22,323 bases of DNA from a virus: IMG/VR virus record IMGVR_UViG_3300020183_000504, positions 1-22,323 of that record. The stretch is one strand, 5' to 3'. The notes beneath the pieces were generated by a model. That model had not been told where the DNA came from. It did no database searches and was given only the letters and a program-made list of their open reading frames with translations. Below, piece after piece: positions 12,449-22,323 of the stretch. Made by a program: the position numbers and the translations under genes. How positions within the stretch are numbered: the stretch's first letter is position 1; each line of letters starts with the position of its first letter.

Positions 12449-12486
12449 GGGGAGATCCTTTGTTGATCTTCCGAGACTCTACTCTT

Positions 12487-12509
12487 GGGTCCCCTCTTCA
12501 CAAGGACCC
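12487..12509 (-). promoter_or_regulatory. Second small hairpin ahead of the triplicated-domain gene
   Basis: GGGTCC and GGACCC form a perfect 6-bp stem with an 11-base loop, just past the terminator and upstream of the next gene. There is no T-tract. It may protect the 5' end of a processed downstream mRNA. Its function is unknown, and chance is possible in such GC-rich DNA. Confidence 0.35.
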
Positions 12510-12512
12510 CAT

Positions 12513-12536
12513 GAGAAAGGGGGGCCGAAGCCCCCC
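12513..12536 (-). terminator. Rho-independent terminator after the capsid gene
   Basis: The minus-strand transcript reads GGGGGGC-TTCG-GCCCCCC followed by TTTCTCAT. This is a 7-bp all-GC stem with a stable UUCG loop and a short T-rich tail, 25 bases past the capsid stop. It should give partial termination, raising capsid mRNA over the tail genes. Confidence 0.85.
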
Positions 12537-12561
12537 TGTCCCAGCCAGATTGACTCTGGTC

Positions 12562-14534: not shown

Positions 14535-15470
14535 TTAGTCCTCCACCGCAACGGCCCTACCAATGGCCTTCTTCTGTTTCAGGTAAAGCTCGTGCGCCTC
14601 CTTTGCCGTCTTGGCAAGGGAACCGCGTCCGCCCATGAACATCGCCTCCGCAATGACGCGCTCCTGATTGCTCAGGTTCGTCTGCTGGCGCTCTGCTGGT
14701 GCCGGTCGCCCGCGAGGCGACGTAAAGGCGCGGCGCACCGGGTTCGGCGCGTCGTCTTCGTCGTCATCGTCCATCAGGCGAACCATGCGCTTGTCCACCT
14801 CCTTGAGAAGTTCGCGGATCGACGCATTGCCCATGCCGGGCTCGTTTGCCACCTTCTGGATCATCTCTTGGGTGGCCGCGAACTCGGGATGGTTCGGAAG
14901 CGCCCAAGGACGCAGCGGCTCGCCATCGTCGCCCTTAGCCGTCTGCCAGCCCTGAAGGACTTGCATCTCGGTCTGGGTGATTGGCGGCGCGGCTTCGGCA
15001 GCGGGGGCGGGAGGCCTCTTGCTCTCCTGCTTCATCTCAAGCAGGCGCTCGTTGACCTCCATGAAGGCTTCCGTGTCGCCGGTTGCGAGGGCTTCCTTCG
15101 CCTCCTTCTTAAGGGTGGCAAGTTCCGCCTGCGTCTCCTTGTCCTTCAGGCCGCCAGCGATGCTTTCGAGGGCCTTCTGGAGCTTGCCGTTCTGCTCGGC
15201 AAGGAGGGAAATCTGGCGCTCGGTCTTCTCCGCGCGTTCGTTCGCCTCCTTCGTGTGCCGGTATAGGCGGTTGAAGCGGGCCTTCAGCTTGGGGTCTTCG
15301 ATTTCGACCCAGTCCGTGCCTTTCTCTTCACCCTCCTCCGCTTTCGCCTTGGGGGCCGGGGTGGCGGCGGGCTTGGGTTCAGGAGAAACTGCTTGAGGCG
15401 CAGCAGGCTTCTGAGGAGTGGCGACTTCGTCATCCGACACCTCGACCCGGTTTCCGATGCGCTCGCTCAT
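14535..15470 (-). CDS. Putative capsid scaffolding / head assembly protein
   Basis: This is a 311-aa highly charged protein that overlaps groES by ATGA. Residues 16-50 are a Pro/Ala/Glu linker. Residues 55-150 (PKLKARFNRLYRHTKEANER and onward) are rich in Glu, Lys, Gln and Leu with heptad-like spacing and should form coiled coil. A second helical part follows at about 155-230. There is an acidic patch DDDDEDD near 234-240 and a basic C-terminus with KAHELYLK-type helix residues near 290-300. Low aromatic content, charge, coiled coil and location two genes before the capsid protein fit a scaffold that guides procapsid assembly and then leaves. No protease motif is visible. The name is from composition and order, not clear homology. 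Confidence 0.65.
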   Translation of the reverse strand: MSERIGNRVEVSDDEVATPQKPAAPQAVSPEPKPAATPAPKAKAEEGEEKGTDWVEIEDPKLKARFNRLYRHTKEANERAEKTERQISLLAEQNGKLQKALESIAGGLKDKETQAELATLKKEAKEALATGDTEAFMEVNERLLEMKQESKRPPAPAAEAAPPITQTEMQVLQGWQTAKGDDGEPLRPWALPNHPEFAATQEMIQKVANEPGMGNASIRELLKEVDKRMVRLMDDDDEDDAPNPVRRAFTSPRGRPAPAERQQTNLSNQERVIAEAMFMGGRGSLAKTAKEAHELYLKQKKAIGRAVAVED

Positions 15471-15784
15471 GCGGCCACCGCCTTCTCGTCACCCTCGATG
15501 ATCCCGATGATGTCCTCTTCCTGCATGACGTACAGGCCCGGCTCAAAGGCAATGGGTTTGGCTGCCCACTTCCCGAACAGGACCCGGTCACCGGGCTTCA
15601 TCACCTCGCAGGCTTCGCCCACGGAAATGACGATGCCCTCATCGGGGATCATCTTCTCTTCGACGGTCTTGGGGATCTCGAAACCCATCTTGGACAGGCC
15701 CGAGAACTTTGTGGCGATGGACGCTTGTAGCGTCTCAGCGCGAACGACGACCCTTGCAAACAAGGGCTTGAGTTTCTTGCTCAT
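15467..15784 (-). CDS. groES: Phage co-chaperonin GroES (Cpn10)
   Basis: This is a 105-aa protein, in the size range of GroES (about 97) and T4 gp31 (111). GroES caps the GroEL folding chamber. Visible landmarks are KPLFARVVVR at 6-15 (the usual KPL-x-DRV-x-V strand), GFEIPKTVEEKMIPDEGIV at 34-52 (matching GGIIIP-type mobile loop then EG-x-V), SVGEA, KPGDRVLFGKW at 63-73, and YVMQEEDIIGIIE at 85-97 (matching the xxxxEEDILAVIE end). The mobile-loop region is several residues longer than in bacterial GroES. The segment between SVG and KPGD is short, so the roof hairpin is missing, as in gp31. The start ATG has AGGAG close upstream inside a hairpin. The stop overlaps the scaffold-like gene as ATGA. 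Position directly before scaffold and capsid suggests capsid folding with host GroEL. Confidence 0.92.
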   Translation of the reverse strand: MSKKLKPLFARVVVRAETLQASIATKFSGLSKMGFEIPKTVEEKMIPDEGIVISVGEACEVMKPGDRVLFGKWAAKPIAFEPGLYVMQEEDIIGIIEGDEKAVAA

Positions 15785-15835
15785 GCTCTCCTCTTGGGCG
15801 ATATGCCCGTCGCAAACCTAACGACAAGAGGAGAG
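15785..15835 (-). promoter_or_regulatory. Hairpin sequestering the groES ribosome-binding site
   Basis: In the minus-strand RNA, CTCTCCTCTTG (15835-15825) is the exact reverse complement of CAAGAGGAGAG (15796-15786). The second arm ends one base before the groES ATG and contains its whole AGGAG ribosome site. The result is a perfect 11-bp stem that would hide the site. The 28-base loop itself holds a small GGGC-ATATC-GCCC hairpin (15808-15796). It lies in the longest gene-free stretch of the window. This arrangement suggests translational control of the co-chaperonin, for example by temperature, a ligand or ribosome movement from upstream. The pairing is seen directly, and the regulatory role is inference. 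Confidence 0.6.
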
Positions 15836-15857
15836 GGTGCGGAAGGGGGGGATACGC

Positions 15858-15887
15858 AGGAGGGGGAGACGTACCCCGCCCCTTCCT
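15858..15887 (-). promoter_or_regulatory. GC-rich hairpin in the groES leader
   Basis: On the minus-strand transcript, AGGAAGGGG (15887-15879) can pair with CCCCCTCCT (15866-15858). That is eight of nine pairs with one A-C mismatch and a 12-base loop. It lies 24 bases after the stop of the 12-codon ORF and has no T-tract behind it, so it is not a standard terminator. It may be an attenuator-like or RNA-stabilising element. Stability was not calculated. Confidence 0.4.
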
Positions 15888-15911: not shown

Positions 15912-15950
15912 TCAGCAGCCCCGCCCACCCTTCTTCGGCTTCTTCTTCAT
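15912..15950 (-). CDS. 12-codon polybasic ORF (MKKKPKKGGRGC), possible leader peptide
   Basis: The ATG at 15950 is preceded by AAGGAG at an ideal six-base spacing, one of the best ribosome sites in the window. The site overlaps the TAA of the 418-aa gene, so translation is coupled. The ORF encodes MKKKPKKGGRGC and stops with TGA, followed at once by an in-frame TAA. Five of the first seven residues are lysine. It could be a tiny basic virion peptide or a leader peptide for the structured region ahead of groES. I do not know a family for it. The ribosome site is the main support, and without expression data the coding status is uncertain. Confidence 0.5.
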   Translation of the reverse strand: MKKKPKKGGRGC

Positions 15951-18094: not shown

Positions 18095-20221
18095 TCAAAG
18101 CGAAGTTGTCTGGGATCCCGGCTGCATCCGGGCGATGGTGATCTTGGCTTCAGCCTCGATCTGCGCCTTCTGCGTCGCGATGGCCTGCTGCACGGAAAGT
18201 TCCTGCTGCATTCGCAGGCTATCGAACTCCTGCTTCATCTGGGCAATCTGCATCTCGTTCTGGATGCGGAGTTCCTGCATGGCGCGCTCGTTGTCGATAC
18301 GCATCTGCTGAAGCTGCTGGTCGGCAATCATCGCCGCCTGCTTCATCTGCTGGTCGATCTGCATCTTCTCAGCCTGCAACTGGATGTCCTGTTGGGCCGA
18401 CTGAGCCTCTAGCTGGAGCTTCTGCTGCTCGACCTCTACCTTGGCCTGCTCCGCCATGACCTTCGGATCCGGCGGAGGTGGCGGAAGTTGGTCAGCAGAT
18501 CGCGGAAGAATGCTGTCAATGCCATCGATTTCCATCTCCTCTAGCAGCCTCCTCGACACCGCAAGGAGGACCTCTGGGTTGTTGCCGACGATGGGGTTCT
18601 TGGTCGCGAAGTCGAACAGGAACTGCGCCTTCTGGAGACGGCTCTGCTGGTTCATCATGCGGGGATCGGCCACGGGCATGATGAGCATGTCGTCAGCAAA
18701 GTCCTGCTCTGTCACAACCATCTCCTGCGGACCTTCAGGAGTGACCGAAATGAAGCCCTCGATTCCACGGAAGTAGATCCCGTGCAGGCGATAGATCTTG
18801 TTCAGTTCCTTGCTCCACGAGTGCAGCAGGAACTCCTGTACGCTCGTGAACATCACCAGCGACTGCTCGACCATCGTCTGCATGGTCGTGGGCTGGAAGA
18901 CCTTGTTGATGTCGCCAGCGGCAGCGTCCGTGGTCGCGCCGATGCGCTGGGCGCGGGTCTCTAGCTGCGCGATGGCCTGCATGAGCGTAGGCGGCGGCGC
19001 GGGGAAGGAGAGGGTCTTGATGCCCTTCTGGATGTCGTCCGTACTCGCGGAGACCGTCTTCAGGCTGCCAAGTTCGATCTTGACCGGCCCCTTGCTGATG
19101 TTCAGGGCCTCCGAGATGAACCCGCTCATGTTGCCATGGATCGACAGGGTGGTGGCGTCGATGAACTGGCGCAGCAGCTTGTTGATGGCGATGTTGGTCT
19201 TGCCCAGCAGGAAGCCCAGTCCGTAGCCGTAGAAGCCATCCGGGTTCGCGAGGAAGCGGTAGTGGGTGTATTCCTCGATGGGCATCCGACCGTTCAGGGG
19301 GCGGCCAAACTCGTCCACCTCGTACCGGACCTCGATGCGGAGCAGCTTCTCCGAGGTCACATCCACCCAGACCTTGTAGGGCTCGGCAATGCCGTCGCCG
19401 TCGATGTCCAGATCGCGATGCTGCTCGATGATCTGGGCCATGTCCTCGCTTTCCATAGAGGACGGCTTGATCCCGTTGTCCTGATCGTTCTGCTGCTGGA
19501 TCAGCGAGGTGACGTTGCCGATCATCATCGGCTCGGGCGGCAAGAGGAAGTAGCCCTCAGACGCCCGGATGCGGCCCTCGTTCAACTGGATGTAGATCAG
19601 TTCGGTCTTCCGATGCACATCCTCGATGTTGATTGGGCCGATGTGGTAGGGGACGAACAGGTCCTCCGCGCGCACGGGACGGGTAACGATCCGGTTCATC
19701 ACGGGGTCGAAGTACGTCTTGGAGAAGTCGCTGCCGTGGACAGCCACGCGCAGGAGCATCGCGGACTTGTCCTCCTTGTAGGTCTGATCCTTGAAGAACA
19801 GGGACCATTGGAGGAACTGGGTGACCCGCTTGGCGCGCTCGGACGACCCCGGGATCGAGGGGTTGGTCGAGATCGCAGAGACCGGCAGGCGGGAGGAGAA
19901 GAACGCCTTGTAGGCACGGCTTTGGAACGAATTGCAGGCTTCCGTCAACAGGCCAAGCGACTCGTCCGACGAGCCGGGCCACGGGCGGTTCATGGGGGCG
20001 TCCTGCTGGTTGTAGACAGCCACCCAGTCCGCATGCATGGCATCCCACTCGGAGCGGCTTTCCTTGTCGGAACGGAAGTCCTCAAGGCACACCTGTGCGA
20101 TGGACTCCCGCTCTTTCTCATCGAGCGAGTCCGCAATGTTGACGAGAAGCGCATTCAGGGCCTGACGCTTTTTGCGCTTGACCTTGTCGTTGTCGCCTCT
20201 CCACTTGCGGTCATCGTGCAT
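18095..20221 (-). CDS. Portal protein (head-tail connector)
   Basis: This is a 708-aa protein. ATG 20221 is chosen over the in-frame TTG just upstream because GAGGAG lies eight bases before it and the ATG overlaps the previous stop (TGATG). Portals form the dodecameric ring at one capsid vertex through which DNA is packaged and ejected. The sequence shows portal-like features: an early NRPWPGSSDES segment, a central mixed region with DLFVPYHIG and GYGLGFLLGKTNIAINKLLRQFIDA split around 330-350, and a C-terminal quarter from about 575 dominated by Gln, Glu, Met and Lys (VEQQKLQLEAQSAQQDIQLQ and onward). That quarter should form a long helix or coiled coil like the barrel of P22-type portals. 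The length is close to the 725 aa of P22 portal. The order, portal first in the head cluster, supports the call. Confidence 0.85.
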   Translation of the reverse strand: MHDDRKWRGDNDKVKRKKRQALNALLVNIADSLDEKERESIAQVCLEDFRSDKESRSEWDAMHADWVAVYNQQDAPMNRPWPGSSDESLGLLTEACNSFQSRAYKAFFSSRLPVSAISTNPSIPGSSERAKRVTQFLQWSLFFKDQTYKEDKSAMLLRVAVHGSDFSKTYFDPVMNRIVTRPVRAEDLFVPYHIGPINIEDVHRKTELIYIQLNEGRIRASEGYFLLPPEPMMIGNVTSLIQQQNDQDNGIKPSSMESEDMAQIIEQHRDLDIDGDGIAEPYKVWVDVTSEKLLRIEVRYEVDEFGRPLNGRMPIEEYTHYRFLANPDGFYGYGLGFLLGKTNIAINKLLRQFIDATTLSIHGNMSGFISEALNISKGPVKIELGSLKTVSASTDDIQKGIKTLSFPAPPPTLMQAIAQLETRAQRIGATTDAAAGDINKVFQPTTMQTMVEQSLVMFTSVQEFLLHSWSKELNKIYRLHGIYFRGIEGFISVTPEGPQEMVVTEQDFADDMLIMPVADPRMMNQQSRLQKAQFLFDFATKNPIVGNNPEVLLAVSRRLLEEMEIDGIDSILPRSADQLPPPPPDPKVMAEQAKVEVEQQKLQLEAQSAQQDIQLQAEKMQIDQQMKQAAMIADQQLQQMRIDNERAMQELRIQNEMQIAQMKQEFDSLRMQQELSVQQAIATQKAQIEAEAKITIARMQPGSQTTSL

Positions 20222-22185
20222 CAATAGGTCTCCTCAAGGGGGGGCATAATGCCACGAGTGTTCTTCCACAACCACGACACCATCCCCGGTCCATGTGCAT
20301 CCCATTGGATCCACGGACTCTCTTGGAGGAACCGGGTGAAGTCCTGCGCCTGACAGAGGATGTCACGGTCAGTCCAGAACTGCTTCGTCTGGCCCCCAAC
20401 TGCCACCTCCATGAGGACGTACTTGGGAGTCCCGTCCTGATGCCGCGCGGACTTGTCCAGCTTGCTCTCGTCCAGATGACACGAGTCAAAGCCGTACAGC
20501 CCAATCGACTGGAAGCCAAGGAACTGCCACGCGAGGATCATTGCCCTTCCAGCAGAAGAGGAACCGCCACCCATAAGGAACTTCTGGTGTTCCTTGGGGA
20601 GGACATCCTTCTCGTCAGCGCCTACCGCCGCGTGCCAGCCATGGACCTTCCCGCCAGTCTCGATCAGGCGCTTCACGACGCCGGGATCGACCATGGAGGC
20701 GCAGAAGTACCGGACGCCCGGGTGGGCGGCGGGGATCAGATTGGCGCGGGCGTGGCCGTGGGTGCTGAAGCCCTCGTGGGGGCGCGGGTCGAGGAGGACG
20801 CAACCCCACGGGGTCAGCCCGGCGTCGATCAGCTTCTGGTGGCTGTGCTTCACGCAGAAGAGGACGGCCCCGTTCTCCACCTCGTCACGGATGGCGTCCA
20901 TCGTCTCTTCCATGTCGAGCGACGGACCAGCGGAGACGATGATTGCCCGGCGCATGTGGTGGCGGGTGTAGCTGACCCAGTTCTGGATCTGGTCGAGGTT
21001 CGCCTTGATGTTGGCATGGATCGTCTCGTTGGGGACGCAGTTCTGCGTCTGTACGAGCATGTTGGTCCGGTACGCATTATTGGTGATTGCCTTGATCTGC
21101 TCCTTCTTCACCGCCGACATCTGGCGCTGGTGAAACACGGGGAGGTCATCGGGGATCAGCGGGAAGTCGCGGGTGACCGCCACATGGACGAACCCCAGCC
21201 CGTCCTTGGCCCGCTCGACCGACTCAAAGACAATCGTGTCCGTCCGCACGGCATTGATGCCAAAGCGGCTGGTGTCGATGTGCTTGCCCTCCTCGTCGGA
21301 CGAGTAAAAACCAATTAAAATCAATGGCTTATCCTCAAGCGCCAGCAGGGCGCGGCGGATGTCCTCGACTGGGACCATGTCGCAATCGACCACCGGCACA
21401 GCATCCTCTGGCACCTCGCCATCGAAGTTTCGTGGGTCGATCCGCACCGACTTCGCCCCGCAGAGCAGGCGCTCCACGATCTCGGCATTGGTCCTCCCGG
21501 CCTTGCGGTTGCCCTTCTTGTGTACGAACACGTTGTCCAGCGAAGATGCTTCAAAGGCGTCTAGGCCATATGGTCCAGCCCCAGCCGGGCAAAGATCATG
21601 CCACTCGCTTTTCTCGGCCTCCATGTGCGCGAGGACGCAGACCATGAAGACGTAGCTGTCGTGGAGTTCCGAGAGCTTCAGGACATCGTCCTTTTCGTAC
21701 ATCCCCACAAACTTCTTGAGGAGGTCCCCGCCCTTGCGACGGAGGTTGAAGGCCATGAATCCACACTCGGGATGCGTGGCGGTCTGAGCGCGCGAGAGCA
21801 GCACTCCGTCCTTGTCATCTGGGAGGATGCGCTTGAGGAAATCCATGGTCAGAGGGGCGCGGGTCTCGACATCGCCATCGAGCCACACCAGCCAATCATG
21901 GCCGTCCTCCTCGGCATCCTTGAGGGCGATCTTCAGCGCAAAGACCTTGTGGGCAAAGCGCAGCAGGTCCTGCCGGTAGTCGTAGCCGGGCTGGGTCGGG
22001 TCCAACTTCTGAGCCGCGTGGCGCACCATGAAGTTTCGGAAGCCGAGATCGATCTCCAGCCGCGCGTCGTTCACCACGTTGATGTCGATCTCGCCGTCCC
22101 AATGCTCTTCAGCCGTCTCCAGCCAACGACGCCCGTAGAGGTCGAAGCCAGCCTCGGACCACGACGAGCAGATCATCACCTTCAT
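20221..22185 (-). CDS. Glycosyltransferase-like / DUF115 (MptE-like) two-domain protein
   Basis: This is a 654-aa protein if started at ATG 22185. The frame is open 19 codons further upstream, but those residues overlap the methyltransferase end and the protein then begins with a typical strand, MKVMICSSW. Residues 1-230 look like a GT-A glycosyltransferase, with an acidic LDGD motif at about 102-105 preceded by LVW, and HPECGFMAFNL about 35 residues later. Residues 410-610 carry DUF115/MptE-like signatures: AGPSLD near 419, GGGSSSAG near 539 and GLYGFDS near 562. A middle region of about 160 aa (VVDCDMVPVED, LILIGFYSS) is unassigned. The likely role is sugar transfer, perhaps decorating virion or host-surface glycans with the neighbouring methyltransferase. 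Substrate and site of action are unknown. Its TGA overlaps the portal ATG. Domain calls are from motif recognition only. Confidence 0.72.
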   Translation of the reverse strand: MKVMICSSWSEAGFDLYGRRWLETAEEHWDGEIDINVVNDARLEIDLGFRNFMVRHAAQKLDPTQPGYDYRQDLLRFAHKVFALKIALKDAEEDGHDWLVWLDGDVETRAPLTMDFLKRILPDDKDGVLLSRAQTATHPECGFMAFNLRRKGGDLLKKFVGMYEKDDVLKLSELHDSYVFMVCVLAHMEAEKSEWHDLCPAGAGPYGLDAFEASSLDNVFVHKKGNRKAGRTNAEIVERLLCGAKSVRIDPRNFDGEVPEDAVPVVDCDMVPVEDIRRALLALEDKPLILIGFYSSDEEGKHIDTSRFGINAVRTDTIVFESVERAKDGLGFVHVAVTRDFPLIPDDLPVFHQRQMSAVKKEQIKAITNNAYRTNMLVQTQNCVPNETIHANIKANLDQIQNWVSYTRHHMRRAIIVSAGPSLDMEETMDAIRDEVENGAVLFCVKHSHQKLIDAGLTPWGCVLLDPRPHEGFSTHGHARANLIPAAHPGVRYFCASMVDPGVVKRLIETGGKVHGWHAAVGADEKDVLPKEHQKFLMGGGSSSAGRAMILAWQFLGFQSIGLYGFDSCHLDESKLDKSARHQDGTPKYVLMEVAVGGQTKQFWTDRDILCQAQDFTRFLQESPWIQWDAHGPGMVSWLWKNTRGIMPPLEETY

Positions 22186-22186
22186 G

Positions 22187-22323
22187 TCACTTATCCACGA
22201 AAACGCTGTCCTTGCCGACGACATCAGCAAGACGGTAGCCAAGCAGGCGGATGACGTTCATCGAGTCCTCCTTGGGTCTCTCGATGATGAGAACGGGCTT
22301 GTGGCGCTTGAGGGTCTCCAATG
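22187..22323 (-). CDS. FkbM-family methyltransferase, C-terminal fragment (5' end outside window)
   Basis: An open frame enters from the right edge and ends at TGA 22189-22187, giving 45 visible residues. They contain the segments LKRHKPVLIIE, then VIRLLGYRLADVVGKDSVFV. This pattern, a hydrophobic strand ending in IE, then a helix, then LLGY and a closing D-x-x-F strand, is what I know from the C-terminus of FkbM-type SAM-dependent O-methyltransferases. Those enzymes usually act on sugars or other small hydroxylated groups. The SAM-binding part lies outside the window, so activity cannot be judged. The stop lies one base before the ATG of the glycosyltransferase gene, so the two are probably co-translated and may work on the same glycan. 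The family call rests on a short tail and could be wrong. That it is a gene end is more secure than its family. Confidence 0.55.
   Translation of the reverse strand, partial: LETLKRHKPVLIIERPKEDSMNVIRLLGYRLADVVGKDSVFVDK

Follow-up and report, generated by a model that had tools for sequence, protein, structure and literature searches.

Transcripts that reach the transposase genes of IS10 and IS50 from outside fold the ribosome site away, and the promoter belonging to each gene lies inside the element. In phage T4, the long early RNA of gene e hides the Shine-Dalgarno (SD) sequence, and late promoters in the region coding for the 5′ strand of the helix give a translatable RNA (PMC3014915). T4 genes soc, 49 and I-TevI carry leader locks like that of gene e (PMC3014915), and a read-through hairpin has been described at the sigG gene of B. 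subtilis (PMC5942855). SD sequences are also held in stems by RNA thermometers such as ROSE and FourU; a thermometer in phage SPβ has been described for blyA, and λ cIII is cited there as an earlier phage case (PMC10586365).

We analysed a window of 22,323 nucleotides of viral DNA (IMG/VR record IMGVR_UViG_3300020183_000504), in which the SD of a groES gene on the minus strand lies in an 11-bp stem. Our best reading is that this stem is a read-through lock with the logic of T4 gene e, in a different gene and a different phage group. A predicted SD helix in RNA initiated upstream and conservation in related phages are shared with the gene e type, and so would be the putative internal promoter. 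The T4 locks have been demonstrated, whereas we infer that of groES from sequence, with a σ70-like promoter in place of a T4 late promoter; the gene is another one, the phages have a Mu gpT-like capsid gene, and the locking arm changes place between lineages. The proposed design is shared with sigG, which differs in being a bacterial chromosomal sporulation gene and in having a second small hairpin at the ribosome-binding site of the RNA from its own promoter. IS10 and IS50 differ in that the gene is a mobile-element transposase, and we know of no sequence relation between them and the groES leader. Like the thermometers, the groES leader has its SD in a stem before a stress-related gene, but the helix is perfect and very stable, is not predicted to melt and has a promoter-like site between its arms.

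The features of the leader in 5′ to 3′ order, and a comparison site in the same window, are as follows.

Positions 15912 to 15950, minus strand: conserved micro-ORF MKKKPKKGGRGC of 12 codons, with GGAG in front.
Positions 15841 to 15886, minus strand: terminator-like hairpin GGAAGGGGCGGGGTACG...CGTATCCCCCCCTTCC with a C-rich CCUCC loop.
Positions 15839 to 15844, minus strand: −35-like hexamer TTCCGC, 18 nt before the −10-like hexamer here and 16 nt in other lineages.
Positions 15825 to 15835, minus strand: 5′ (locking) arm CTCTCCTCTTG, complementary to the SD arm and situated between the −35-like and −10-like elements.
Positions 15808 to 15825, minus strand: inner hairpin of the predicted read-through fold, GTCG (15825–15822) with CGAC (15811–15808), with one double-changed pair in close relatives.
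Positions 15815 to 15820, minus strand: −10-like hexamer TAGGTT, TAnnnT in 14 of 14 lineages.
Positions 15796 to 15808, minus strand: small hairpin GGGC-AUAUC-GCCC immediately before the SD, with the putative +1 at its first G.
Positions 15786 to 15796, minus strand: 3′ arm CAAGAGGAGAG, which includes the groES SD; AGAGGA is invariant in 14 lineages.
Positions 15467 to 15784, minus strand: groES (Cpn10), 105 amino acids, assigned by PF00166 and the PHROG co-chaperonin GroES family.
Positions 12476 to 12542, minus strand: comparison site (control leader) with a terminator at 12542–12513, TTGTGA at 12503–12498, N16 and TAGAGT at 12481–12476.

The initial annotation had reported that 15835–15825 and 15796–15786 are exact complements over 11 bases and bury the groES ribosome site one base before the ATG, and both points were confirmed. 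The SD core AAGAGGAG lies within the 3′ arm, and a single C (15785) separates this arm from the ATG (15784–15782, minus strand). The most stable predicted fold, at about −30 kcal/mol (37°C), was a three-way junction with two inner hairpins and an outer stem of 10 bp, because the C at 15796, the last base of the 3′ arm, is shared with the GCCC closing the smaller hairpin. The stem had been placed in the longest gene-free gap, which needs the qualification that the gap contains the conserved 12-codon ORF at 15950–15912. Chance had been considered unlikely, and this judgement stood for the position at the SD and not for the repeat as such. Dinucleotide-shuffled windows held a mean of 0.6 perfect 11-bp repeats and 35% of the shuffles had at least one, so that the bare repeat proves little; in the window it is the sole one with a loop of at most 60. 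A helix of such strength on the SD gave p = 0.0005 against 2000 shuffles of the groES leader, the floor of that test, and no other SD among 21 examined gene starts of the window was as occluded as that of groES (P unpaired 0.019).

Hairpins at the SD are the usual form of RNA thermometers and groES is a bacterial heat-shock gene, and the stem might melt as the temperature rises, with groES translated in heat stress. Phage thermometers are known, that of SPβ blyA (PMC10586365) and before it that of λ cIII, so that a phage thermometer here would not be the first. We consider opening by heat very improbable here. ViennaRNA predicted exposure of the window SD below 1% at 5–45°C, with values of 0.05% and 0.5% at 50 and 70°C, respectively, and fold scans gave little trend at 5–45°C in most relatives, but the temperature scan alone is weak because E. 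coli ibpA, a known thermometer, gave no trend with the program either; as the model failed this positive control, the no-opening result rests mainly on the strength of the helix, which has 10 to 11 uninterrupted canonical pairs within the junction. Rfam gave no match at the gathering score and none to the ROSE, FourU, cspA and Hsp90 thermometer families at E ≤ 10. The helix would also be absent from RNA begun at the putative promoter.

Relatives of groES were gathered by protein-guided scans of IMG/VR and belong to one uncultured phage group. Their leaders comprised 22 distinct sequences, which were grouped by eye into 14 lineages. All lineages except L083 and near-identical copies shared a common layout, which begins with a micro-ORF and one or two hairpins with C-rich loops; a brief variable segment then leads to a small hairpin of the type GGGC/GCCC or GCGC/GCGC, followed by the SD AGAGGA and the ATG. 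L083 kept the promoter-like elements and the SD and had the hairpin at a different place. A groES protein search of a phage collection found no isolate with such a leader, a DNA pattern scan of viral contigs returned only known members of the set, and further scans with groES of L083 and L080 gave no new lineage.

Versions of the micro-ORF in relatives, including MKKKPMKKGGRGC and MYKKNGKKKKGGRSC, showed synonymous changes; it was absent in L081 and L083. In L025 and L028 the arms of the upstream hairpin had an entirely different sequence but were still complementary. Hairpins with such a loop were also noted in the leaders of L022, L030, L080 and L081; the anti-SD-like CCUCC loop motif was kept in 12 of 13 lineages, with an extra copy in some. 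A second lock by pairing of the C-rich loop with the groES SD seemed convincing on inspection of several lineages and was rejected, as native pairs were not better than swapped ones (p = 0.64). By likeness only, the hairpins with C-rich loops recall the alphaproteobacterial cuckoo/CcsR RNAs, which are located after small DUF1127 proteins (PMC10253847).

The two arms of the stem co-varied in the window-like lineages, being CUCUCCUC/GAGGAGAG in the window, CUUUCCUC/GAGGAAAG in L005 and CCUUCCUC/GAGGAAGG in L009. Pairs in these leaders were counted on an alignment starting at the locking arm; automatic alignment misplaced that arm. The compensatory changes proposed as a check in the initial annotation were seen in close relatives, as double changes at two pairs of the SD helix and one of the inner helix (G-C to A-U), and shifting the partners by 1–3 bases abolished the pattern. 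The partner was relocated in L008 (UUUCCUCU/AGAGGAAA), L028 (UUUUCCUCU/AGAGGAGAA), L019 (GUUCUCU/AGAGGAC) and L030 (UCCUUUG/CAGAGGA). In these four lineages it adjoins the small hairpin, just 3′ of or overlapping the −10-like element and still upstream of the putative +1.

SDs were then exchanged computationally among lineages, a swap that preserves base composition. Across the 14 lineages the native leader-SD duplex had −11.6 kcal/mol compared with −9.7 kcal/mol for the SDs of other lineages (p = 5×10−5); with seven deep lineages, one per deep branch, p was 0.0018, without the window-like lineages 0.00015, and for the spacer-to-+1 stretch 1×10−4, all of these values being approximate because the lineages are related. 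The control leader behind the capsid-gene terminator of the same phages gave no co-evolution in this test (p = 0.30). The SD-hiding arrangement was retained across the 14 lineages and was weakest, with short or weak pairing, in L022, L032, L025 and L083.

A pyrimidine-rich promoter region might complement a purine-rich SD by chance, so that the lock would be an unselected by-product. The leaders are indeed C/T-rich, swapped duplexes already reach the −9.7 kcal/mol given above, and 11-bp repeats are not rare in this GC-rich window. However, the swap test kept the composition and was still significant, the double changes were compensatory, and the sister leader lacked the signal; we regard this explanation as quite unlikely. 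Selection on the SD pairing is strongly supported by these comparisons, and co-evolution in the relatives likewise supports the hidden ribosome site first noted in the window.

Both promoter-like hexamers were picked by eye before conservation was measured, and sites were anchored on the small hairpin. The consensus was TTnCnn-N16-TAnnnT-N6/7-G, with N18 in the window; the 16-nt spacing held in 13 of 14 lineages. The T, A and T of TAnnnT were invariant, compared with identities between lineages of about 40% in the spacer and about 29% in the discriminator. The first G of the small hairpin lay 6 or 7 nt past the −10-like hexamer in all 13 lineages with a GGGC or GCGC hairpin. The arms of this hairpin were fully paired in 14 sequences, five of which had a G-C to C-G double change. 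Exceptions at the −35-like hexamer were TTCTTT in L022 and CTCCGA in L081. This TTnCnn is far from TTGACA and overlaps an arm of the upstream hairpin whose conservation may have a separate cause; a strict consensus promoter scan reported no site in the groES leader.

In the window the promoter core lies between the arms of the repeat, and an inverted repeat around the −10 could be a DNA site with two half-sites, bound by a protein that represses or activates the groES promoter. However, the half-sites vary between lineages in sequence and in spacing, the window having a loop of 28 nt and L008 and L028 one of about 16 nt. With one half also coinciding with the SD in every case, we regard such an operator as extremely improbable.

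The control leader independently showed this geometry again, as TTGTGA, TTGGTG or TTCCCC, N16, TAGAGT, TAGACT or TAGATT, N6 and a purine, and TATGAT or TATAAT stood at about the −10 place in other lineages. The terminator after the capsid gene (12542–12513, minus strand) is intrinsic with a UUCG loop, and the gene that follows has its SD inside a 5′ AGATC...GATCT hairpin. From this geometry, the groES leader and post-capsid sites are probably σ70-like promoters placed after terminators.

The junction could also serve on a long, working mRNA. As a translational operator it would be bound or cut by a protein or ligand that opens the SD, with GroES itself, the capsid protein or RNase III as candidate factors. 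The junction is ordered, its hairpins are conserved with covariation, and phage precedents exist, such as T4 gene 43 (PMC3014915). Against this, the partner arm changes its position, and the inner hairpin is altered or lost, between lineages (L008, L028), therefore no fixed protein-binding shape is kept; the features kept are the SD pairing and the start point, and the only constant shape is the small +1 hairpin. No conserved specific RNA shape, as expected of a protein-bound operator, was found at the ribosome site, and we consider such an operator rather unlikely. A riboswitch-like sensor, in which free GroES, capsid protein or another factor of phage or host would open the junction of the long mRNA and so make co-chaperonin synthesis track the folding load, is quite unlikely.

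The groES product matched PF00166 with E = 7.6×10−9 and 35.9 bits (cut-off 21.1), residues 4–96 covering profile positions 1–93 of 93, so the Cpn10 domain spans the whole protein and the Cpn10/GroES assignment holds. The gene is the first in the order groES, a 311-aa gene, 160 aa, 196 aa and the major capsid protein, which is Mu gpT-like. For the capsid gene, too, the prediction had most of the SD paired (13452, minus strand; P unpaired 0.08). Elsewhere in the window, about 146 bases of a DUF6321 gene (17981–17836, minus strand) matched DNA of Synechococcus and Planktothrix phages at 82%; within the 4.6-kb stretch searched, no phage record gave a stronger DNA match. Next to the portal gene, 20221–22242 (minus strand) encodes a protein of 673 aa in which an MptE-like domain (PF01973) was recognized. 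Eight contigs of relatives contained no phage-encoded GroEL (controls were positive). No PF00940 match to a T7-type RNA polymerase occurred in 8 relatives' contigs, in a search in which the control genomes matched none either, and ten large genes examined in one relative included no such polymerase.

T4 gene 31 (gp31) is a phage co-chaperonin. A groES gene upstream of a gpT-like capsid gene was also found in other, more distant phages, namely Alcaligenes phage vB_Af_QDWS535, MW202785, MW202796, Roseobacter CRP-902, Synechococcus MinM2, Pelagibacter HTVC027P, DSL-LC04 and 023Pt_psg01. A separate groES leader was absent in these phages, and groES touches, closely follows or overlaps a small upstream ORF; that of QDWS535 is unannotated and was identified directly in the sequence. 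The proposed lock is seen where groES comes first in a transcription unit of its own.

A read-through lock on groES is the best account of the 11-bp stem and, in our judgement, probably the right one. The genes from groES to the capsid gene would form a transcription unit of their own, with the terminator-like hairpin before it, the σ70-like promoter in the leader and the intrinsic terminator after it. Polymerase entering from upstream genes would transcribe both arms, and the 5′ arm in this long RNA would pair with the SD and leave groES untranslated. RNA from the groES promoter would begin at the GGGC/GCCC hairpin without the 5′ arm and would expose the SD. The co-chaperonin would thus stay silent until the groES promoter becomes active, or its dose would be independent of upstream transcription. 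Every locking arm, in both positions, is upstream of the putative +1, therefore the long RNA is predicted to hide the SD and the short RNA to expose it. Computed at 25°C, P(SD unpaired) in read-through versus +1 RNA was 0.000 and 0.38 in the window, 0.000 and 0.81 in both L002 and L009, 0.04 and 0.93 in L008, 0.02 and 0.97 in L019, and 0.01 and 0.93 in L030; the +1 RNA of L025, L028 and L083 was predicted to expose the SD only 20–30%. We infer a working promoter, its start position, and the existence and poor translation of the read-through RNA. Silencing until the own promoter fires, or insulation from variable read-through, would fit the position ahead of the capsid gene.

Relocation of the arm upstream of +1 would be a natural case of selection for SD hiding only in read-through RNA with no fixed shape, and swapping SDs between leaders, with a sister leader for comparison, may serve as a general sequence test for such locks. 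If the proposed lock is true, it brings a phage chaperonin gene, from an uncultured group, under the principle known from T4 gene e, and suggests that the dose or timing of the co-chaperonin is important enough to be locked against stray transcription.
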